Assembly (NCBI GenBank): GCA_022823505.1
Contig: JAJEIA010000143.1
Location: 1-50,879, forward strand
DNA: 50,879 nucleotides
Reading direction: 5' to 3'
Source of the DNA: Dehalococcoidia bacterium
GTDB lineage: Bacteria; Chloroflexota; Dehalococcoidia; Lucifugimonadales; UBA3495
This document shows positions 6,460 to 50,879 of this stretch, in pieces. Position 1 is the stretch's first letter. Every line of letters begins with the position of its first letter. Both the position numbers and the translations under genes were made by a program. A model generated the notes under the pieces. The model had not been told where the DNA came from. It worked only from the letters and a program-made list of their open reading frames with translations, and ran no database searches.

Positions 6460-9400
6460 GTGTACAAAATCGGCATCGACGTGGGAGGAACCTTCACGGA
6501 TTTCGTGGTGGCCGGAGAAGCCGGGCAGCCGCGGTTTTTCAAAACGCAGACCACGCCCGACGACCCTTCATTGGGAGTCATGGCTGGGCTGGAGGAAGCC
6601 GCCGACGCGTACGGCCTGCCCCTGGAGGAGTTTCTGGGTGACACCGACCTGGTAATTCACGGGTCGACGGTTGCGACCAACACGCTGGTGGAACGGAAGG
6701 GGGCCACGGTCGGGCTGATCACCACCGACGGCTTCCGCGACCTCCTGGAAATGCGCGAGGGGCTGAAGGAAGACCGCTACAACCTGCGCATGACGCCCGT
6801 GGAACCACTGGCTGCCCGCTACCTGCGGGTGGGGATCCCGGAGCGGATCCGGGCCAGCGGGGTCGTGCAGCATCCGTTGGACACGGCGGCGCTGGAGGAA
6901 CAACTGGAATATCTCGTCCAGCAGGGAGCCGAGGCGCTGGCGGTCTGTTTCCTGTTTTCGTACCTGAATCCGGCCCACGAGCAGCAGGCGGGCGCAATCA
7001 TACGGCGCCACTTCCCGGACACGTACACCTCGCTGTCCCATGAGGTGATTCCCCAGATCAAGGAATTCGACCGCCTGAGCACCACCGTTATCAACTCCTA
7101 CGTCGGCCCGGTTTTCAGCCGCTACCTGTCGCACCTGGGGGAGCGGTTCGATGCATATCCACAACTCGATGACGTCCTGATCATGCAGTCCAACGGCGGC
7201 GTGGCCCCCATCGACGACTCCCGCCGCATGGCCGTGCGGGCGATCCTGTCCGGGCCGGCGGGAGGCGTCAGCGCCGCCGCGTACCTGGGGCAATTGTTGG
7301 ATGAGCCGAAGGTGATCGCCTTCGACATGGGGGGTACCAGCACCGACATTTCGCTCATCGAGAACGGGGTTCCCCACATCACCAACGAAAAATTTGAGGC
7401 CGGATGGAAGATCGCCGCCCCGATGATCGACATTCACACCCTCGGCGCCGGGGGCGGCAGCATCGCCCGCGTTGATGAAGGCGGCATCCTCCACGTCGGT
7501 CCCCAAAGCGCCGGCGCGGACCCCGGCCCGGCGTGCTACGGTCGGGGCGGGCTCGACCCCACCGTGACCGATGCCAGCCTTGCCCTGGGTTACCTGGACC
7601 CCGGCAACTTCCTCGGCGGTCGTGCCAGGCTCGACCACGCGGCGGCCATGCGGGCCTTGAACGACAGTGTCGGCTCGCCCCTCAGTCTCTCCGATGCGGA
7701 GGCCGCGTTCGGAGTGTACAAGGTCGTGTGCACCACCATCGCCGAGGGGATCCGGCTCATGTCAGTGCAGCGCGGGGTCGACCCGCGGGAATTCACGATG
7801 ATGGGATTCGGGGGCGCGTCCGGTCTACACGCGTCGGAGGTGGCCCGCCAGTTGCAGGTCGAAAAGGTGTACATACCGGCGTCCGCGCCCGTGCTGTCGG
7901 CATACGGGATGCTGAACACCGACATCAAGTACGACTTTTTCCGGTCGTATCCGGTCAGCCTGGACCGGCTGGACCTCCGCGAGTTGCGCGCGATCTTGGC
8001 CGAACTGGGGGCCCAGGGACGCGAAAAACTGCTCTCCCAGGGTGCTGCCGAAGACGCGGTGGAGATCCAGTACTCCGCCGACATGCGATACCTGGACCAA
8101 ATCTACGAAGTCACCGTGCCCGCTCCGAACCTGGATTTGGAGGATGCGGAATTCATCGCTGAGCTAACGGCCAACTTCCACCGGAGGTACGAGGAACTTT
8201 TCTCGTACAACCAGCAAAGCCAGGAGGTGCGGCTGGTGACGCTGCGTTCGGTGGCCCTGGGCCGGCTGCCCCGAATTGCACAGCTGGACCGGATCGAAAG
8301 TGCCGGCGAGGCGGAGCCATCCGGACGTCGGCGGGTCTATCTCGGCGAGTGGCGTGAGGCTCCGGCCTATGCGGCGGATGCGCTGCCGGCGGGCACGGTG
8401 ATTGACGGACCGGCCATCCTGGAGTCGGATTTCACCACCATCCTGGTTTGGCCGGGCGATCACGCTACGGTGGACGCCATGGGCGGGGTTGAGTTACGGG
8501 TGGGCCAGCCGGCCGGAACGCGCCCGGAGGCACAAACACCGGGCTCCGCCGCCGCAGACGCTGGGCAGCGCGCCGCGCATGATGACCCAATCACTCTGGC
8601 CGTCGTGGAGCATCGCTTGGAGTCCATCGCCCAGGAGATGACCGAGGCGATGCTGCGCACGGCTATGTCCCAGATCCTCAACTCCAGCCGGGATTTTTCG
8701 ACCGCGATCCTGGACCGCGATTGCCAACTGGTAGCCCAGGGCGAGGGCATACCGGTGCACATCAGCGCGCTTCCCGTCGCCGGGGCCGCCGTCCGGGACT
8801 ACTTTGGCGATGACATCCACGACGGCGACCTGTTCATCCTGAACGATCCCTATTTCGGCGGCAGCCACCTGCCCGACATCACGATCATCCGGCCGGTGTT
8901 TCACGACGGGCAACTGCTGTTCTACGGCGTGAACCGCGCCCACCACAGCGACGTTGGCGGCGGCACCCACGGCGGCTACAACCCCGGCGCCAACGAGATC
9001 TTCCAGGAGGGCCTGCGCATCCCTCCGCTACGCATTTATGACCGGGGCGTGCCCCGGAACGACCTGCTCCAGATGATGTCGGCCAACGTCCGGCAACCGG
9101 AGAACTTCCTCGGCGACCTCAACGCGCAGATCGGTTCGGTCATGCTGGCCGCCCGGCGGATTGGCGACCTGTTGTCCGAGTACGGCGCCGACCGCCTGAT
9201 GTCCGTTGTGGCCGAGATCCTGAACGCCACCGAGCGCCAGGTGCGCCAGTTCGTCGCCGGCTGGCCCGACGGCGTCTACCACGGCGAGTCATTCGTGGAC
9301 GACGACGGTTTCGACAGCAAGCTCGTGCCGATCCGCGCCACGGTCACCATCGCCGGCGACTCCATGACCATCGACCTGAGCGAGTCCAGCCCGCAGGTAG

Positions 9401-10215
9401 AAGGTTTCATCAACAGCGCCTACGCCAACACCCGTTCCCTGGCCCACGCCGCCATCATGTACCTTGCGCCGATGGATGTGGCCCGCAACGAGGGTTCCAT
9501 GCGGCCCGTCCAGATCGTCGCTCCTCGTGGCCTGGTGGTCAACGCCAACCCGCCGGCGCCGGTCTGCATGAGCACGAACCACTGCGCCGAGGAGGTTGTG
9601 GAAGCGGTGTTCAAGGCGCTGGCTCCGGCCATTCCGGCCGCGGTGTCCGCCGGGTTCTCCCGCCGCCTGCGCTACGCCATCACCGGCAAGGACCCTAGGA
9701 CTGGGCGCCAGTTCATCTGGCACTTCTTCCTGGCCCGGGGCGGCGGTGGAGCCTCAGAAGGGTTCGACGGCTGGCCCAACGTCGGCGAGATCAACGTGGC
9801 CGGCGGGATACGGTCGCCCAGCATCGAGGTTACCGAGGAGCGGTTCCCGTTCTTCATCAAACGCCACGAGCTGCGCCCCGATTCGGGCGGCGTCGGTCAA
9901 TGGCGCGGGGGCCTGGGCGCAGTGTGCGACCTGGTCTACGAGGGCGAAGGCCCCGCCCTGCTCAACACCGCCGGCGACGGCATCGTCGTGCCCCCGTTCG
10001 GCCTCTTCGGCGGCGACGACGGCCTGCCGCACCACTACAAGATCGTCGCCAACGGCACCGACCGCGTCCTGGGCTCCAAGGAGGTGGGAGTGCTGGTGAA
10101 CCCCGGCGACCACATCGTCTGCCTGTCCTCCGGCGGAGGCGGGTATGGGTCGCAAGAGGATCGGGACAAGGGTGCGGTAGCTTGGGATGTGCAGAACGGA
10201 TATGTCACCCGGTAA
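6460..10215 (+). CDS. Fused hydantoinase/5-oxoprolinase (HyuA-HyuB)
   Basis: A 1251-residue protein carrying both subunits of the ATP-dependent hydantoinase/oxoprolinase family in one chain. HyuA occupies about residues 1-680: IGIDVGGTFTDFV at the N-terminus, STVATNTLVERKGA, FDMGGTSTDISLIE and HTLGAGGGSIARV are nucleotide-binding and family motifs. A low-complexity linker (about 680-706) leads to HyuB (about 707-1251) with NDPYFGGSHLPDIT, DVGGGTHGGYNPGA and the RPDSGGVGQWRGGLG block. Members cleave 5-oxoproline, hydantoins or related cyclic amides with ATP; the substrate here is unknown. The GTG start is preceded by a strong AGGAGG. The fused form resembles 5-oxoprolinases (about 1250-1290 residues) rather than split N-methylhydantoinases. 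Confidence 0.92.
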   Translation: MYKIGIDVGGTFTDFVVAGEAGQPRFFKTQTTPDDPSLGVMAGLEEAADAYGLPLEEFLGDTDLVIHGSTVATNTLVERKGATVGLITTDGFRDLLEMREGLKEDRYNLRMTPVEPLAARYLRVGIPERIRASGVVQHPLDTAALEEQLEYLVQQGAEALAVCFLFSYLNPAHEQQAGAIIRRHFPDTYTSLSHEVIPQIKEFDRLSTTVINSYVGPVFSRYLSHLGERFDAYPQLDDVLIMQSNGGVAPIDDSRRMAVRAILSGPAGGVSAAAYLGQLLDEPKVIAFDMGGTSTDISLIENGVPHITNEKFEAGWKIAAPMIDIHTLGAGGGSIARVDEGGILHVGPQSAGADPGPACYGRGGLDPTVTDASLALGYLDPGNFLGGRARLDHAAAMRALNDSVGSPLSLSDAEAAFGVYKVVCTTIAEGIRLMSVQRGVDPREFTMMGFGGASGLHASEVARQLQVEKVYIPASAPVLSAYGMLNTDIKYDFFRSYPVSLDRLDLRELRAILAELGAQGREKLLSQGAAEDAVEIQYSADMRYLDQIYEVTVPAPNLDLEDAEFIAELTANFHRRYEELFSYNQQSQEVRLVTLRSVALGRLPRIAQLDRIESAGEAEPSGRRRVYLGEWREAPAYAADALPAGTVIDGPAILESDFTTILVWPGDHATVDAMGGVELRVGQPAGTRPEAQTPGSAAADAGQRAAHDDPITLAVVEHRLESIAQEMTEAMLRTAMSQILNSSRDFSTAILDRDCQLVAQGEGIPVHISALPVAGAAVRDYFGDDIHDGDLFILNDPYFGGSHLPDITIIRPVFHDGQLLFYGVNRAHHSDVGGGTHGGYNPGANEIFQEGLRIPPLRIYDRGVPRNDLLQMMSANVRQPENFLGDLNAQIGSVMLAARRIGDLLSEYGADRLMSVVAEILNATERQVRQFVAGWPDGVYHGESFVDDDGFDSKLVPIRATVTIAGDSMTIDLSESSPQVEGFINSAYANTRSLAHAAIMYLAPMDVARNEGSMRPVQIVAPRGLVVNANPPAPVCMSTNHCAEEVVEAVFKALAPAIPAAVSAGFSRRLRYAITGKDPRTGRQFIWHFFLARGGGGASEGFDGWPNVGEINVAGGIRSPSIEVTEERFPFFIKRHELRPDSGGVGQWRGGLGAVCDLVYEGEGPALLNTAGDGIVVPPFGLFGGDDGLPHHYKIVANGTDRVLGSKEVGVLVNPGDHIVCLSSGGGGYGSQEDRDKGAVAWDVQNGYVTR

Positions 10216-44073: not shown

Positions 44074-45060
44074 TCAGCGTCGGAAGTCCGGAGCGACCTG
44101 CTCCAGGAACACCTGCATCTGTTCTTCCTGGCGGTAGGTGGCGAAGCGCACTATCACCTGGTCCGCGCCCGCCTCCGCGTAGGCGTGAATGCTCTCCCGC
44201 ACGCGCTCCGCATCGCCGAAGGGACCCCAGCGGTCGCCCCAGATGTTTGCGCCGTAGTAACCCATGAGCCAGTCCTCGGCCTCCGCTTCGGCCCTGGCGA
44301 CGTCCTCGTCCAGGTTGACCGTGAGATACATCACCGTCGACAACGCATCGGGGTCACGTTCGTATTCCGCGCAATAACCGCGCACGGTGTCCCTGAGGTC
44401 GACGAGTTCCTCGGGGGTTGCGGAAATCGAGATGGCGCCATCGGCGAGACGGGCGGCGCGCCGGGCCTGGCGCTCGCGCTGGGCTCCCTGTCCATCGCCG
44501 CGACCGTGCCAGTGGACGCCAAGGTACACGGGAACGCCGCCGGGCTGGACCGGTGTGGGCTCCATGATGACGTCGTCCATCTGGAAGTGGCGCCCCTCGT
44601 AGGAGAAGGGCTTGCCGGTTCCAAGCCCCTTGACCACCTCGAGCATTTCCTCAAGGCGGCGGGCCCGAGTACGCTGGGGCACATCGGCGTTGCGCCATTC
44701 CGCCTGCTGCATCCCGTTGAACGCCCCGCCTACCCCGACTCCAAGCTGCAGCCGGCCCGAGGAGATGAGATCGACCGTGCCCATCATCTGGGCCAGGAGA
44801 ACCGGGTGGCGCAGGGCCATGAGCATGACCGCGGTACCCAGCCGCACCCGGCTGGTGCGCGCCGCGATGGCGGCGAGGGTGGTCATCGCTTCCAGGCGCG
44901 GCTTTGCGGTGAGGCTGTCCCCGACCCACACGGAGTCCATGCCAGCCTCCTCAGCCCACGTCGCCAAGCGGAGGACGGTTTCAGCATCCGTTGGCTTGCG
45001 GTCGGCCAGCAACAGGCCACGGGTGGGCAGGAGGCAACCCAACTGAACGTTCGATGACAT
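44074..45060 (-). CDS. LLM-class oxidoreductase, possibly F420-dependent
   Basis: A 328-residue luciferase-like TIM barrel. LGCLLPTRGLLLADRKPTDA starts it; ATWAEEAGMDSVWVGDSL, TLAAIAARTSRVRLGTAVML and GTVDLISSGRLQLGVGVGG are family motifs. Its start lies 3 bases from the cofC stop, at the tail of the cofG-cofH-cofD-cofC operon. That makes F420 its likely cofactor (inference); FMN cannot be excluded. Substrate unknown. Confidence 0.88.
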   Translation of the reverse strand: MSSNVQLGCLLPTRGLLLADRKPTDAETVLRLATWAEEAGMDSVWVGDSLTAKPRLEAMTTLAAIAARTSRVRLGTAVMLMALRHPVLLAQMMGTVDLISSGRLQLGVGVGGAFNGMQQAEWRNADVPQRTRARRLEEMLEVVKGLGTGKPFSYEGRHFQMDDVIMEPTPVQPGGVPVYLGVHWHGRGDGQGAQRERQARRAARLADGAISISATPEELVDLRDTVRGYCAEYERDPDALSTVMYLTVNLDEDVARAEAEAEDWLMGYYGANIWGDRWGPFGDAERVRESIHAYAEAGADQVIVRFATYRQEEQMQVFLEQVAPDFRR

Positions 45061-45063
45061 AGG

Positions 45064-45756
45064 CTACCGGATCTCCAGGGTGGTGAGGTTGAGGGATCTG
45101 GGTTCGCGACCAAGCAGGCGTTTCAGCAGGCCCGGCTCCATGTGTTCGTATTCTTCCAGGTCGGAGCCATCATCGAGGTCGAATCCCATACCCTGGCTGT
45201 AATAGAACGCCACGGACACGCCCATTCGCGCCGCTGTACCCACGTGCTTGCGGAAGCTGTTGTTGCCCAGTTCGGGACGGAAATAGGGAATCAGGTCGTA
45301 GGGAACCAATATGGCGTTGGTGCCGCCGTCCCGGCGGGCGGGCGACAGCGTTATGTTGTGCTGGTGCTCAGCGCTGCGGATGAGCTGATGAATGTCGCTG
45401 GGCTTGATGAAAGGCAGATCCCCGGGGAGGTACAACGCCGACACCCCGCGCAGCCGAGCGCTTTCAAATGATTTGGTAATGGTGTCGTTGAGGTTGCGGC
45501 CCAGGTCCTCCATCCAGTTGGCGCCCAGGGTACGGGCCATGTTGCGGACGCGGTCGTCCCCGCCCACAACCCAGAATGGGTCCACGCCCGCGCCGCGAAT
45601 GGCCAGCAGAGCGCGACGGAACATGCCCATCGTAAGGTCGGCGCGGTCATCGGGTCCCATGACACGTGATAGCCGCGTCTTGCACTCCGAAAGCGGCTTC
45701 ATTGGGATCACGGGGACCACGGTGGGGTTGGCCTGATCGGGCGAATCGGTCATCAT
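45064..45756 (-). CDS. cofC: 2-phospho-L-lactate guanylyltransferase (CofC)
   Basis: A 230-residue nucleotidyltransferase that activates 2-phospholactate (or phosphoenolpyruvate in actinobacterial-type routes) with GTP for F420 assembly. VVPVIPMKPLSECKTRLSRV is the nucleotide-binding start, LYLPGDLPFIKPSDI a CofC hallmark, SPARRDGGTNAILVPYD and FYYSQGMGFDLDDGSDLEEY the acceptor side. Its ATG overlaps the cofD stop (ATGA at 45756-45753), indicating coupling. Confidence 0.93.
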   Translation of the reverse strand: MMTDSPDQANPTVVPVIPMKPLSECKTRLSRVMGPDDRADLTMGMFRRALLAIRGAGVDPFWVVGGDDRVRNMARTLGANWMEDLGRNLNDTITKSFESARLRGVSALYLPGDLPFIKPSDIHQLIRSAEHQHNITLSPARRDGGTNAILVPYDLIPYFRPELGNNSFRKHVGTAARMGVSVAFYYSQGMGFDLDDGSDLEEYEHMEPGLLKRLLGREPRSLNLTTLEIR

Positions 45757-46715
45757 TTTCGGTTCTCCAGGTCGGCGACCAGCGCGAGCACCCGTTCCGC
45801 GAGCTGAATCTTGTCCTCGTCGGTCTGCATGATGGTGGGCATCACGGCCGCCCCGACCCCTTCGGTGCGGACGGCTTCTTCCAAGTCCGCGTCCTGCGAG
45901 TCCAGCACCAGCACGTCGCAGATCTCGCGGTATTCCCGGGCCACACCGACCGCAGATACGTCGGCGCCCAATTCCTGCATGATCTTGCCTGCGGGCCCGC
46001 GTACTGCCGCACCTCCGACGATGGGGCTGACGGCCACCCGGGGCACGTGATGCTCGGCCATGGCGTCGCGTATTCCGGGCACGGCCAGGATAGGCGCCAC
46101 GCTCAGAAACGGGTTGGAAGGGCAGACGATGATCGCCGACGCGGATTCCAGTGCAGACACGAATCCGGGGGATGGTTGGGCGTCCTGTGCACCGACGTAA
46201 CTGATGGCCCGCACCGCCGGTTCGGCACGCCGCTTGACGAAATACTCCTGCATCGAAAGGGTGCCTTCGTCGGTATCCAGAACCGTCCGCACCGGCTGAT
46301 CGCTCATCGGGATTATCGGGTGATCGATGCCCAGATGCGCGGTCAATTGCGAGGTGACCTGGCTCAAGGACAACCCCTGGGCGAGTAGTTCGGTGCGTCG
46401 GATGTGCATGGCAAAATCGCGGCTGCCCAGATTGAACCAGGTATCAGCGCCGAGCCGATTCAACATCTGGAGGGTTTCAAACGAATCGCCGTCGATGCCC
46501 CAGCCGGTTTCGGGATTATACAGGCCCGACAGCGTGTAGGTCATTGTGTCCAGGTCGGGGGACACGTGCAACCCGTGGAACTGCTCGTCGTCGCCGGTGT
46601 TGACGACTATCGCCAACCGGTCGGGCAGCAGGACCCGCGACAGGCCCAGGGCAAGCTTGGCCCCACCGACGCCGCCGGCAAGGGCCAGCACCAGTCCGTT
46701 GGTCGACGCCGTCAC
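45753..46715 (-). CDS. cofD: 2-phospho-L-lactate transferase (CofD/FbiA)
   Basis: A 320-residue enzyme that joins FO to the activated phospho-acid to give (dehydro)F420-0. The glycine loop ALAGGVGGAKLALGLSRVL, VVNTGDDEQFHGLHVSPDLD, and IIVCPSNPFLSVAPILAVPG are CofD signatures. It starts 3 bases after cofH and overlaps cofC by 4 bases. A CofD-fold paralogue, YvcK/GlmR, lies at 3950-5044. Confidence 0.95.
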   Translation of the reverse strand: MTASTNGLVLALAGGVGGAKLALGLSRVLLPDRLAIVVNTGDDEQFHGLHVSPDLDTMTYTLSGLYNPETGWGIDGDSFETLQMLNRLGADTWFNLGSRDFAMHIRRTELLAQGLSLSQVTSQLTAHLGIDHPIIPMSDQPVRTVLDTDEGTLSMQEYFVKRRAEPAVRAISYVGAQDAQPSPGFVSALESASAIIVCPSNPFLSVAPILAVPGIRDAMAEHHVPRVAVSPIVGGAAVRGPAGKIMQELGADVSAVGVAREYREICDVLVLDSQDADLEEAVRTEGVGAAVMPTIMQTDEDKIQLAERVLALVADLENRK

Positions 46716-46718
46716 TGG

Positions 46719-48038
46719 TCAGGCCGGCTGTTGTACAGCGTTCCGTTCGCGTTGCGTGCGAGGATGCTCGAACCGGTAGGAGTCCATCTGTACCAACTGG
46801 TTGTAGGAGCCGAAGATCTCCTCAACGTTGTCGCCCACCAGGTCCAGCGGATCCAGCGCCTCGTCGGAATCGCTGTACACCCGGCGAATGCCGTAGGTGG
46901 TATATCGCTCGGCCGGAGTGCGGCCGGCCTCCCGGATCATGGCGCGGAACTCCGATGGGCGCATGAGCTGACCGTGCATGGCTCCGGCGGAGGTGGAGAT
47001 GCTCTCGTTGATCAGGGTGCCGCCCAGGTCGTTGACGCCCGCGGTGAGCAGCAGTTGGGACATCCGGCTGCCCTCCTTGACCCAGGAGGCCTGGATGTTG
47101 GGGATCCAGTTGTTGAGCATGATACGGGCGATGGCGTGGACCTTTATCACGTCCATTCCGGTCGGGCCGGAGCGGACGTTCTCGACGGTGCCCTTCAGGT
47201 ACATCGGTGCTTCGGAGGCCACGAAGCTGAGCGGCACGAACTCGGTGAATCCGCCGGTTTGCTGCTGGATGTCACGCAGCAGGGCGATGTGGCGCACGAT
47301 CTGGGCGTTGGTCTCCCGGTGGCCGAACATCACCGTCGACGTCGTCGGGATGCCCAGGTCGTGGGCGTTGGTGATCACCTCGATCCACTGGTCAACGGTG
47401 ATCCGGCCCGGGGATATGACGTCGCGCAGTTCCTGGTCCAGCACTTCCGCGGAGGTCCCGGGCAGGCTGCCCACACCGGCGTCTTTGAGTCCCTGCAGGT
47501 ACTCCCGAATGGTGCACTTCGACCTGACGGAGCCGTAGAGCACCTCCTCCGGGGAGAAGCCGTGGACGTGCATGTCCGGCAGTTCTTCCGTGATGGCTTC
47601 GCACAGGCGAATGTAGAGATCGCCCTCCATCTGGGGAGGCAGACCGGCCTGGACACAGACCTCGGTGGCTCCGTAGTCCTGGGCCTCCTTGGCACGGCGG
47701 ATAATCTCGTTCACCGGCAGGAAGTAGCCTTCCTCCTCGCGGAAATCGCGGCTGAAGGCGCAGAACCCGCAGCGCTTGATGCAAACGTTGGTAAAGTTGA
47801 TGTTCCGGTTGACCACGTAGGTAACGAGGTCGCCGACCACACGTCGCCGCAGCTCGTCGGCCACCATGGTCATCGCCGTAAATTCGGGGCCGGAGGTCCC
47901 GAACAGGATGTCGGCTTCGTCGACGGATATGTCGCCGCCCGCCAGAGCGTGTTCCAGCACCGACGCCACCTCCGGGCGCAGTGAGTTGATCAGGGCAACC
48001 AGAGTTGCCGGAGCATCGCGGTCAGTTGCTGTGGACAT
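46719..48038 (-). CDS. cofH: FO synthase subunit 2 (CofH), radical SAM
   Basis: A 439-residue radical SAM enzyme that, with CofG, makes the deazaflavin chromophore FO. The Fe-S motif is CIKRCGFC (C-x3-C-x2-C) in FTNVCIKRCGFCAFSRD; VCVQAGLPPQMEGD, VHGFSPEEVLYG and GGTLINESISTSAGAMHGQ are CofH-specific. The ATG at 48038 lies within the last codons of cofG (17-base overlap) with GGGGGAA upstream. In Actinobacteria the two halves are fused as FbiC; here they are separate. Confidence 0.95.
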   Translation of the reverse strand: MSTATDRDAPATLVALINSLRPEVASVLEHALAGGDISVDEADILFGTSGPEFTAMTMVADELRRRVVGDLVTYVVNRNINFTNVCIKRCGFCAFSRDFREEEGYFLPVNEIIRRAKEAQDYGATEVCVQAGLPPQMEGDLYIRLCEAITEELPDMHVHGFSPEEVLYGSVRSKCTIREYLQGLKDAGVGSLPGTSAEVLDQELRDVISPGRITVDQWIEVITNAHDLGIPTTSTVMFGHRETNAQIVRHIALLRDIQQQTGGFTEFVPLSFVASEAPMYLKGTVENVRSGPTGMDVIKVHAIARIMLNNWIPNIQASWVKEGSRMSQLLLTAGVNDLGGTLINESISTSAGAMHGQLMRPSEFRAMIREAGRTPAERYTTYGIRRVYSDSDEALDPLDLVGDNVEEIFGSYNQLVQMDSYRFEHPRTQRERNAVQQPA

Positions 48039-49242
48039 AGCGTCGGATTCCCCCTTTGACGTAACCCGACTCGTCGGTGAGTCGGAGCAGTTTTTCCTTG
48101 AGAGACGGCGGCAAGGGCCATGCGGAACCGCCGGCGAAGTACTCCGGATAGACCGGCAGGCGCGGGCGCAGTTCGTAGCCGGCCTCGCGGGTGCGGCGTT
48201 CCAGTTCGGTGAGCTGAGGCCAGGGGGCCTCCGGGTTGACGTAGTCGATGGTGAGCGGCGACACGCCGCCCCAATCGTTGATGCCGGCGGCAATGTAGCG
48301 CTCGTAGTTCTCGCTGAGGTTGGGCGGCACCTGGATGTTGACCCGCTCCCCGAGAATGATGCGAGCCACGGCGGTGGTCCACATGAGTTCGTCGGGAGCG
48401 GCGTCGGGCGTGTCCGCCATTGGAGTGTCCGCCTTGGCCCGGAAGTTCTGAATGATGACTTCCTGTATGTGGCCGTACCGTTGGTGCAGGCGTCGAATGT
48501 CCAACAGGGATTCCACGCGTTCCTGGCGGGTCTCGCCGATCCCGATCAGAATGCCGGTGGTGAATGGGATTCCCAATTCCCCGGCCAATTCCATGGTCCG
48601 CAGGCGCACACGGGGACGCTTGCTGGGAGCGAATTCGTGGGGCCCCCCGGACTCGTAGAGCCGCACGCTCGAACTCTCAAGCATGATCCCGATGGAAGGA
48701 TTGGTCGGTTGCAACGCCTCCAGTTCCCGGCGGCTCATGGTGCCGGGATTGCCGTGAGGCAGCAATTCTGTTTCCTCGAAGACGGCGCGGCACATTTGGG
48801 ACAGGTAATCGTGCGTAGTGCGGTATCCTCTGACCGAAAGCCAGTCCGCTGCCTCCGGATACCGCTGCTCGGGGCGCTCCCCCAGGGTGAACAAAGCCTC
48901 GGTGCAGCCTAGACGCTGCCCGGCGCGTGCAACGTACAGCACCTGGTCCGTGGTGAGATACAGGTCGTCGGTCTCTGCGGGTGACTGGCGGAAAGTGCAA
49001 TAGCCACAGAAATCGCGGCACAGACGGGTCAGCGGGATGAACACCTTCGGTGAGAAGGTGACGACCCGGCCGCGGCCCCGGTCGCGCAACCCTGAAGCGA
49101 CTGCGCACAGGCCGGCCTCAAAGCTGCCGTCCCCCTCGACGAGCGCCATGGCGTCATCATCGGACAACTCGGCCCCGCCCGCCAACCGATCCAGCGAGGG
49201 CAGATCTGAAATGTTTATGTGGACAGCTGAACCGTTAGGCAC
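48022..49242 (-). CDS. cofG: FO synthase subunit 1 (CofG), radical SAM
   Basis: A 406-residue radical SAM enzyme. The Fe-S motif is CRDFCGYC in PLTRLCRDFCGYCTFRQ; FTLGERPEQRYPEA, PHGNPGTMSRRELEAL and FTTGILIGIGETRQERVESL are CofG features. It starts with GTG, weak ribosome site, right behind a promoter with a 35-base leader. It heads the operon cofG-cofH-cofD-cofC-LLM. cofE (glutamyl ligase) is not in the window. Confidence 0.95.
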   Translation of the reverse strand: MPNGSAVHINISDLPSLDRLAGGAELSDDDAMALVEGDGSFEAGLCAVASGLRDRGRGRVVTFSPKVFIPLTRLCRDFCGYCTFRQSPAETDDLYLTTDQVLYVARAGQRLGCTEALFTLGERPEQRYPEAADWLSVRGYRTTHDYLSQMCRAVFEETELLPHGNPGTMSRRELEALQPTNPSIGIMLESSSVRLYESGGPHEFAPSKRPRVRLRTMELAGELGIPFTTGILIGIGETRQERVESLLDIRRLHQRYGHIQEVIIQNFRAKADTPMADTPDAAPDELMWTTAVARIILGERVNIQVPPNLSENYERYIAAGINDWGGVSPLTIDYVNPEAPWPQLTELERRTREAGYELRPRLPVYPEYFAGGSAWPLPPSLKEKLLRLTDESGYVKGGIRRYVHSN

Positions 49243-49414: not shown

Positions 49415-50491
49415 TCAATCACCGAACAGTTGACCCTGACGTGACGGATCCACGCCAGACCCGGACCACGGCCATCCGAGGTATTCATAGGCCAGACGCG
49501 TTGCAACCCGACCTCTCGGTGTCCGCTCCAGCAAACCCTGCTGGAGGAGGAATGGTTCGAGAACTTCCATCACCGTGCTGGCGTCCTCGCTCATGGAGGC
49601 AGACAAAGTGTCCAGGCCTACCGGACCGCCATTGAATTTTTCGATGATGCTGGACAGAAGGCGGTGGTCAGTTTCGTCCAGCCCGCGCGCATCGACGCCC
49701 AGGCGGTCCAGGGACTCGCGAGCCACCGGCCCCGTAACCCGGTTGTCCGCGCGGACCAGCGCGTAGTCACGGGCGCGGCGCAGCAGACGGTTGGCGATGC
49801 GGGGCGTACCGCGGGAGCGTACCGCCACCTCGCGCAATCCCTCGTCTTCGGACTCTATGCCCAGGATCCGGGAGGAGCGGCGCACGACGGTTTCCATGTC
49901 GTCGTCCGCATAGTAATCAAGGCGGAAAACGGAGCCGAACCGGTCGCGCAGCGGGGCGCTCACCAGAGAGTACCGGGTTGTGGCACCCACCAGCGTGAAG
50001 GGGTTGATCCGCAGGTTGATGCTGCGGGCCGAAAGTCCTTTGCCCACGACCCATGAAAGGAAGAAATCCTCCATCGCCGAGTACATCACCTCTTCGACGG
50101 CACGGTTCAGACGGTGTATCTCGTCGATGAACAGGACGTCGTTGGGCTGCAGCCCGGTCAGGATGGAGGCGATGTCGCTGGCGCGCTCGATGGCCGGACC
50201 CGAAGTCACCTTGATGGTGGAACCCATCTCGTGGGCGATTATGTTAGCCAGAGTGGTTTTGCCGAGGCCGGGCGGGCCGTAGATCACGACGTGATCCAGG
50301 GCTTCGCCACGCATCCGCGCGGCCTCCATGGCGATGCTGAGGTTTTCTCGCACCTGCGGCTGGCCGACGAAGTCGTCGAGGCGCGCCGGCCGCAGGCGCA
50401 CGTCCTGCTCGCCGTCATCGCCCTGGGTGGCTGGTGAGATCGGTCGCGCTCCCGACTCGGCCGCGCCATCTGGTCTCTGCGTGGTCGTCAT
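49415..50491 (-). CDS. ruvB: Holliday junction branch migration helicase RuvB
   Basis: A 358-residue AAA+ hexameric motor that drives branch migration with Ruv[19 protein letters not shown] begins the conserved part; Walker A is [14 protein letters not shown], Walker [16 protein letters not shown], with [20 protein letters not shown] (sensor 1/Arg finger) and the C-terminal winged helix [18 protein letters not shown]. About 35 N-terminal residues are extra and Glu/Asp/Pro rich. The promoter lies so close that the mRNA may start at the ATG. Confidence 0.96.
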
Positions 50492-50667: not shown

Positions 50668-50744
50668 GGGCGGTTAGCTCAGTTGGTTAGAGTACTTGCT
50701 CGACACGCAAGAGGTCAGTGGTTCGAGTCCACTACCGCCCACCA
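50668..50744 (+). tRNA. tRNA-Val (anticodon GAC), with C33
   Basis: Acceptor GGGCGGT/ACCGCCC, D stem GCTC/GAGT, anticodon stem CTTGC/GCAAG around the loop TCGACAC (anticodon GAC), T arm AGTGG-TTCGAGT-CCACT, discriminator A, CCA encoded. Position 33, almost always U, is C here. The 3' end overlaps the stop and last codons of the reading frame on the other strand. Confidence 0.93.
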
Positions 50745-50879
50745 ACCTGCACGGTAGATAGAACTGCATCGGGAAGGGCCACCTTGTCGGTGGCCTTTCC
50801 CGATGCCAGGCTGTCGCTGGGCATGGGCACGGTGTAGCGCATCAGGGCGTCGCCGGGCACCACGAGAATCTCCTTGACG
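50732..50879 (-). CDS. Serine recombinase-like protein, C-terminal end only
   Basis: A minus-strand frame enters from the right edge, runs 48 codons and stops with TAG at 50734-50732 inside the tRNA-Val gene. It reads ILVVPGDALMRYTVPMP, a SD/KVALPDAVLSTVQ stretch and ends VGGR. The beta-rich R-Y-T-V-P-M-P element followed by a short tail ending near GG resembles the C-terminal end of large serine recombinases encoded on Chloroflexota mobile elements (from memory of the family; not searched). The catalytic domain would lie beyond the window. A chance open frame is possible but the codon usage and motif argue against it. Confidence 0.5.
   Translation of the reverse strand, partial: VKEILVVPGDALMRYTVPMPSDSLASGKATDKVALPDAVLSTVQVGGR
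50766..50806. repeat. Long inverted repeat beside tRNA-Val
   Basis: An 18-bp stem, GCATCGGGAA-x-GGCCACC against its complement with one mismatch (a G/T pair in RNA), around a TTGTC loop. It lies 22 bases after the tRNA and inside the recombinase-like frame. No T run follows on either strand. Confidence 0.65.

Follow-up and report, generated by a model that had tools for sequence, protein, structure and literature searches.

The right edge of the window, the entire 50,879-base contig G000:C115 of a Dehalococcoidia bacterium, raises the question of what kind of gene enters from the contig end and stops inside a tRNA gene. The original prediction took this frame for the end of a serine recombinase gene belonging to an element integrated at the 3′ end of tRNA-Val(GAC). 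tRNA genes are classic landing sites of genomic islands, a role attributed to tyrosine integrases; the family described here is one of serine integrases. The following features of the window bear on the question.

49415..50491, minus strand: ruvB, the host gene flanking the insertion site (NCBIfam)
50668..50744, plus strand: tRNA-Val(GAC), the attachment gene and left half of attL (ARAGORN; the same tRNA has ruvB upstream in four congeners)
50721..50724, plus strand: T-loop box GTTC, tRNA positions 53–56, 22 nt from the middle of the CC of CCA (sequence, half-site logo)
50732..50878, minus strand: large serine recombinase (LSR) of type A, C-terminal 48 codons, with its stop inside the tRNA (ORF and homology)
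50742..50744, plus strand: tRNA CCA end, the point at which the window and the empty sites diverge and the putative place of strand exchange (tRNA positions 71–76)
50745..50764, minus strand: near half-site of the element within the LSR gene, GTTCTATCTACCGTGCAGGT read towards the core (sequence; codon test on relatives)
50761–50764, minus strand: inverted GTTC box of the near half-site, 22 nt from the middle of CC

The recombinase gene at the contig end

The minus-strand frame (50878..50732) is open at the contig edge and reaches its TAG stop in the 3′ part of tRNA-Val(GAC), with the translation VKEILVVPGDALMRYTVPMPSDSLASGKATDKVALPDAVLSTVQVGGR before the stop. Since the window is the entire contig, which ends 135 bases beyond tRNA-Val, the gene is cut by the end of the assembly (genome G000; 3.7 Mb, 87% complete). 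As many as 47 of the 48 residues align with the C-terminus of a 554-amino-acid LSR from another genus of the same family (G028:C4:12269-13930), with an identity of 97.9% (tblastn, 2.4e-21), and this relative carries PF00239 (Resolvase), PF07508 (Recombinase) and PF13408 (zinc ribbon) in one protein, exactly the Pfam families that the original prediction had named. Because such a near-identical relative contains these three domains, the gene in the window is assigned to the LSRs (type A); on this homology, the frame is not a chance one but the real C-terminus of a large serine recombinase. The 48-residue piece alone gave no Pfam match, as expected for a region that lies behind the domains. Profile A1 matched chains of the SPbeta integrase in the PDB at 6e-20, with SPbeta and other serine integrases as the nearest structures, and Foldseek matched solved serine integrases with an E value of 1.6e-21, yet with a TM-score of only 0.26 over the whole chain.

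Empty sites and the split host locus

Among 25 tRNA-Val(GAC) loci from relatives that were compared with the window, four (G001, G004, G011 and G013, all of the same genus) have ruvB directly upstream of the tRNA, 91.6–94.7% identical to that of the window. All four diverge from the window at the first base after CCA, which means that the site is empty in these congeners. Downstream of tRNA-Val in G004 lies an amidohydrolase gene whose DNA shares 82% identity with C61:11225-12662 in the window's own genome, where the gene has the Pfam domain Amidohydro_2. Upstream of this gene, C61:10518-10548 reads GGTACTGCCTACCGTCAAGTCAGGCCCACCA, an element-type end of a kind that recurs at other elements. 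Because the displaced downstream gene sits on C61 behind an element-type end, the host locus is, by this comparison, divided over C115 and C61. The insert that separates the two parts comprises the LSR gene and at least another 10.5 kb, its middle being absent from the assembly. The far end on C61 finishes GGCCCACCA, and GCCCACCA is thus present on both sides of the insert, so that a direct repeat does exist, and it comprises about 8 nt rather than a long tRNA fragment. The identity of the LSR, the empty sites and the far end on C61 together support the proposed integration of an element at the tRNA 3′ end.

Since 7 of 20 positions differ between the far end on C61 and the near half-site of the window, this far end may be that of an earlier element within a stack. 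The remainder of the window's LSR was sought in its own genome by DNA and protein, which returned paralogues only, and a scan of viral contigs with the 48-amino-acid window peptide gave 49 pattern matches, none of which was confirmed. The cargo on C61 includes a Replication-relaxation-like protein (below the Pfam cut-off) and a 1284-amino-acid protein with a subtilase domain; no Pfam match was obtained for the six other frames lying before the far end.

A recombinase family at many tRNA genes

tRNA-Val is not a special target, as the type A family uses many tRNAs. Three further type A genes in the window's own genome run into tRNA-Met(CAT), tRNA-Ile(GAT) and tRNA-Arg(CCG). Type A matches were present at E values of 1e-60 or better in 20 of 60 genomes and at 1e-100 in 38 of 148 genomes drawn from the class, the own genome being included in both counts. 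A scan of GTDB contigs gave 203 confirmed relatives, and among the best 80 of these 203, which were kept, 78 came from records titled Chloroflexota, Chloroflexi or Dehalococcoidia (several per assembly) and two from records titled Bryobacterales. Bryobacterales belong to another phylum, and the two LSRs concerned (L200 and L238) would reflect either transfer or mis-binning.

The first set comprised 84 loci, 80 from genomes and four out of ten from viral contigs. In 46 of them the LSR 3′ end coincides with the end of a tRNA encoded on the opposite strand, and 42 of these 46 have one offset from the protein alignment in common. In two further sets, which have some genomes in common with the others, the LSR 3′ end lies at a tRNA in 23 of 29 and 17 of 20 loci. 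The 38 loci of the first set that lack a tRNA, classified by reading, comprise 18 joined to an N-type far end, six joined to other far ends, two with degenerate tRNAs, two at contig edges, six unexplained and four without a recognisable core. Once duplicates had been removed, 180 distinct LSR 3′ ends remained: 125 with a near half-site, three at contig edges and 52 without a near half-site, the last an unsorted group with type B ends and decayed copies among them. The near half-site was picked by a GT 20 bases before TGG, so that this distance is set by choice; the tRNA was no part of the choice. Of the 125 ends, 86 abut a tRNA, and in all 86 the closing TGG is the antisense of the tRNA CCA. 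These 86 ends cover 18 isoacceptors, or 20 with Tyr and Arg(TCG) from the 84-locus set, corresponding to twelve amino acids and including Leu, Ser and Tyr tRNAs. In the three sets of 84, 29 and 20 loci, ARAGORN reported no tmRNA at any end; all three sets, cut at high similarity to type A, contain no ssrA-directed member. On an IMG/VR contig (L245), an LSR at 8001-9572 that is 41% identical ends in tRNA-Ser(TGA) at the usual offset.

The same joint between LSR and tRNA is found in family members of genomes of 1.4–1.9 Mb, and the three copies of the type A family examined in a genome of 1,469,720 bases run into tRNA-Val and tRNA-Ala genes. For Dehalococcoides mccartyi 195, the available part of the 2009 Dehalococcoides genome report describes islands at tRNA-Ala and tRNA-Val (PMC2764846), and we infer that the same LSR family may move such Dehalococcoides islands.

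Attachment half-sites and a proposed mechanism

Measured from the middle of CC in the CCA end, the T-loop GTTC of the tRNA starts at a distance of 22 nt. The near half-site within the LSR gene carries GT(T/A)C or GTTA in inverted orientation at the same distance. A motif of this kind is also found at the far ends, which place the box 28 nt from CC and as a rule finish with GGCCCACC. In G032:C49 the near and far motifs have 18 of 20 positions in common. In G063:C1 they have 17 of 20, but this pair is less sure, as another LSR gene stands between its ends. What both half-sites have in common with the tRNAs is chiefly the GTTC box, together with the CC(A) end. No motif was apparent by eye in the right half of attB. 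The near box coincides with a codon for Val, and in 68 of the 69 genes with Val at this place the codon used is GTT or GTA; among the remaining Val codons of these genes, the share is 254 of 2864, or 9% (Fisher p = 4e-67, without correction for relatedness; 78 loci, of which four out of frame and five with another residue there were left out). This bias indicates that the near box is kept as DNA and not only as protein, and an attachment half-site would thus be written into the last codons of the very enzyme that reads it.

We propose that the type A LSR gene forms the tRNA-proximal end of the element, with its last codons doubling as one attachment half-site, and that the enzyme would bind the part of the tRNA gene that is common to all tRNAs, namely the T-loop GTTC box, a fixed 22 nt and the CC of CCA. 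The element would bring its own copies of the box, 22 nt from CC at the near end and 28 nt from CC at the far end. Exchange near CCA would leave the tRNA intact and place the far end before the old downstream DNA, so that newer elements could insert at the same tRNA, older ones being pushed outward. The LSR would then read into the antisense of its landing tRNA and so acquire an arbitrary tail. Recombination of attP with attB is seen here solely through its products in the sequence: attL, the far ends and the empty sites.

The right edge of the window is very likely the attL of an integrated mobile element, the LSR of which would bind the invariant T-arm and the CCA of tRNA genes; the parts of this explanation read from sequence are the LSR family, the empty sites, the CCA joint, the many targets, the GTTC spacing and the tandem array. 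We consider it probable, if by no means assured, that a Dehalococcoidia-wide serine integrase family reads a fixed stretch of tRNA genes (GTTC box, 22 nt, CCA) and therefore lands at nearly any CCA-encoding tRNA gene, carries a mimic of the T-loop in its last codons and builds last-in-first island stacks. If this is true, a serine integrase reading the common part of tRNA genes would explain the spread over many tRNA loci without harm to the tRNAs and would amount to a simple enzyme for which many bacteria have a landing site. Dehalococcoidia islands, perhaps including some with reductive dehalogenases, would then fall under one mechanism.

Target choice among related enzymes

The spread over many tRNAs could also come from ordinary site-specific LSRs, with each lineage reading the sequence of one tRNA, the target often being switched and no general reader existing. 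We regard this as unlikely, as LSRs that are 86–92% identical are found at different tRNAs: enzymes with 92% identity over 226 amino acids lie at tRNA-Met and tRNA-Ala, others with 87% identity lie at Ile and Ala tRNAs and likewise at Ala and Arg tRNAs, and two with 91% identity over 367 amino acids lie at two Arg tRNAs. Conversely, two LSRs that are both at tRNA-Met are 58% identical. On a quick tree of 78 LSRs with 45 labelled tips, 30 changes of isoacceptor were counted, compared with 32.7 ± 1.5 for shuffled labels. Because the number of label changes is near the shuffled count, the tree carries little target signal, and target identity is almost random on it. The count is slightly lower than for shuffled labels, as the idea of ordinary LSRs would have it, and 24 of 300 shuffles gave 30 or fewer changes; the tree test thus leaves room for weak fidelity. 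The clearest sign of fidelity that we noticed is a group of like near half-sites found repeatedly, in several genomes, at tRNA-Glu(CTC) (L232, L235, L280, L282, L283, L315 and L318), and one clade seems faithful to tRNA-Glu. Against lineage-specific reading stand the single fixed spacing over 18 isoacceptors, including Leu and Ser tRNAs with their long variable arms, and the restriction of what half-sites and tRNAs share mainly to the GTTC box and the CC(A) end.

Point of strand exchange

The targeted tRNA-Glu and tRNA-Arg(CCT) carry TACCA. An insertion that alters tRNA positions 72–73 was considered and dropped, as sites of both tRNAs without an A near half-site also show TACCA. For tRNA-Arg(CCT), the 12 sites comprise two occupied, eight free with TACCA and two without an encoded CCA. 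The ten sites of tRNA-Glu comprise two occupied, one without CCA and seven that have TACCA without an A near half-site, one of these seven being at a contig end and two being followed by B-type-like sequence. For Arg(TCG) and Leu(TAA), the comparison covered distant free sites, which read CGCCA and CACCA. Because TACCA is also found in eight of 12 and seven of ten sites without an A near half-site, positions 72–73 appear unaltered in the targeted tRNA-Glu and tRNA-Arg(CCT), which favours exchange at the CC of CCA. The palindrome formed by the far and near half-sites (attP) is centred on tRNA positions 71|72, with 25 + 25 in attP and 19 in the tRNA half. Two readings of the exchange point therefore remain, the CC of CCA or tRNA positions 71|72. 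A search for the far ends of elements at the Gln, Glu, Tyr and Arg(TCG) tRNAs gave none in the stretches covered.

There is seemingly no encoded CCA in tRNA-Arg(CCT) of the window's genome (L313, G000:C92) and of G005 (L312), or in tRNA-Glu of G215 (L319); the other compared genomes encode CCA in the same tRNA.

The C-terminal tail

The original prediction held that the host tRNA completes the C-terminus of the LSR, so that integration would alter the protein. This is true in sequence, as the tails differ with the joint: the window has VGGR, the joint at tRNA-Ile has GGPGWTRTNDLGLIRTAL, and N-type and B-type ends give a long run-through. A functional effect of integration, conceivable from the sequence, found no support, the host-completed part being variable. 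Such a swap could act as a switch, in which the tail of the circular form is needed for, or blocks, recombination and integration brings in residues encoded by the tRNA antisense; McMurdie 2011 raised the same possibility for DsiB, as far as the text is available (PMC3146451), and the dependence of the tails on the joint is consistent with it. We consider a switch decidedly unlikely, as the tails look unconserved between elements and targets. A predicted model of a type A LSR points weakly in the same direction, with pLDDT values below 50 at residues 520–543, where the half-site codons begin; six other stretches of this model are low too, including residues 115–141 in the catalytic domain, the pTM is 0.37 and few rows of the underlying alignment (A2) reach into the tail. 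The C-terminal swap is thus real in sequence and probably without function, and the tail would be a tolerated by-product.

Type B recombinases and tandem elements

A second LSR, type B, is about 53% identical to type A in the joints and often faces an A gene, the two being convergent and a few bases apart. These many convergent B|A joints would fit an arrangement in which one element carries A at one end and B at the other, with the two recombinases working together and the joints being circular forms. The contig G032:C49 argues otherwise. It has a tRNA-Ile|A joint at 17.9 kb and an A-type far end at 39.6 kb, behind which lies a putative B-type near end. Next come a B gene and its far end at 68.9 kb, with another A behind it (a B|A joint), and then, at 86.8 kb, an A-type far end with the putative B near-end sequence behind it once more. 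Because these far ends lie between A and B, the single-element idea was dropped: an A far end separates the tRNA-proximal A from B, and an A element restarts behind B, all on this one contig. No B gene was found at other A-type far ends such as those on C61 and at 39.6 kb in G032:C49. A paired action of A and B is accordingly very improbable. The order on this one contig suggests separate A- and B-type elements in tandem, with the type B LSR at the far end of its own element, and the newest element would be nearest to the tRNA if every insertion uses the tRNA. That the contig end, 135 bases past the tRNA, joins unrelated DNA to it by an assembly artefact is scarcely credible, since joints of this type are seen across many genomes of different assemblies, and the host gene displaced from downstream of the tRNA was located behind an element end.

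The B-type near-end sequence (AAACTGGATAAAATCAAGAACC or similar) was seen at L072 377-398 (G000:C90, tRNA-Lys), L135 529-550 (G000:C109, no tRNA seen), L029 and L324; in three of these four it lies right behind a tRNA CCA, which suggests B-type elements or their remains. A search of the own genome for a B-type far end with up to three mismatches gave two matches, both of them near-end-like sequences.

Relation to known systems

Dehalococcoides belongs to the same class as the source organism of the window. In the available part of McMurdie 2011, the DsiB gene of the Dehalococcoides ssrA islands always overlaps attL and takes its stop codon from ssrA or from the neighbouring island, and the meaning of this overlap is left open (PMC3146451). 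The likeness to type A is close, DsiB being a serine recombinase of about 540 amino acids at attL, with a gene overlapping attL and with islands in tandem. The differences lie in the target and, as far as scanned, in the neighbourhood: the target described for DsiB is a single tmRNA gene with a 20-bp repeat, whereas type A uses many tRNAs with about 8 nt in common and the target in the window is tRNA-Val and not ssrA (tmRNA), and the six-gene module of DsiB (DsiA, RecF-, ParB- and Mom-like) was not seen beside the two A genes scanned (own C119 and G032:C49).

The islands of tyrosine integrases at tRNA genes, as described in the accessible part of the Islander report (PMC4383910), resemble the present ones in their insertion at the tRNA 3′ end with the tRNA left whole, and differ in using a tyrosine recombinase with a tRNA fragment in attP, whereas serine recombinase domains are found here. 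The multi-targeting LSRs of Durrant 2022 (PMC10083194) likewise have LSR domains and close relatives at many sites. In the part of the text available, however, an example has a relaxed site with a TT core, whereas one structured class of targets is used here, and most members of the multi-targeting clade have DUF4368, which Pfam did not find in the one type A protein tested; the word tRNA is absent from the main text. Serine integrases have their zinc-ribbon motif 5 bp further from the core in attP than in attB according to the accessible part of Rutherford 2013 (PMC3783163). The far half and the tRNA half are similarly shifted here by 6 nt, with the difference that the halves of attP are unequal (28 and 22) with a CC core and equal (25 and 25) at 71|72.

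A 2023 survey of mycobacterial prophages lists 29 attB sites, 23 for tyrosine and six for serine integrases. An overlap with tRNA or tmRNA genes is given for sixteen of the tyrosine sites and, in the part available, for no serine site (PMC10654092). The available part of a 2026 integrase paper, which covers both families and many tRNA sites, makes no tie between serine integrases and tRNAs, and among the matches listed from the open-licence literature no serine integrase family using many tRNAs was described. DsiB would thus be the precedent for the overlap and for an RNA gene as target, and a serine integrase family for many tRNAs seems to be undescribed.

Cargo and neighbouring genes

The first element of G032:C49 (at tRNA-Ile, with both ends present; L136 = G032:C49:28001-48000, and L083) encodes a type I restriction-modification system (HsdM, HsdS and HsdR-like), AbiEii, a PD-(D/E)XK nuclease and an AAA protein, and its cargo is, judged from these annotations, one of defence genes. 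Beside the A gene in G032:C49 lie a PD-(D/E)XK nuclease and a Replic_Relax protein, and beside that on C119 of the own genome lie a ribbon-helix-helix protein and one protein without a Pfam match. The ribbon-helix-helix gene (L071 11847-12152, G000:C119) is directly upstream of the type A LSR gene and is a candidate regulator or directionality factor. In the window itself, a coenzyme F420 cluster occupies 44074-49242 on the minus strand, with CofG, CofH, CofD and CofC above the NCBIfam cut-off and, beside them, an F420-type LLM oxidoreductase with a score below the cut-off.
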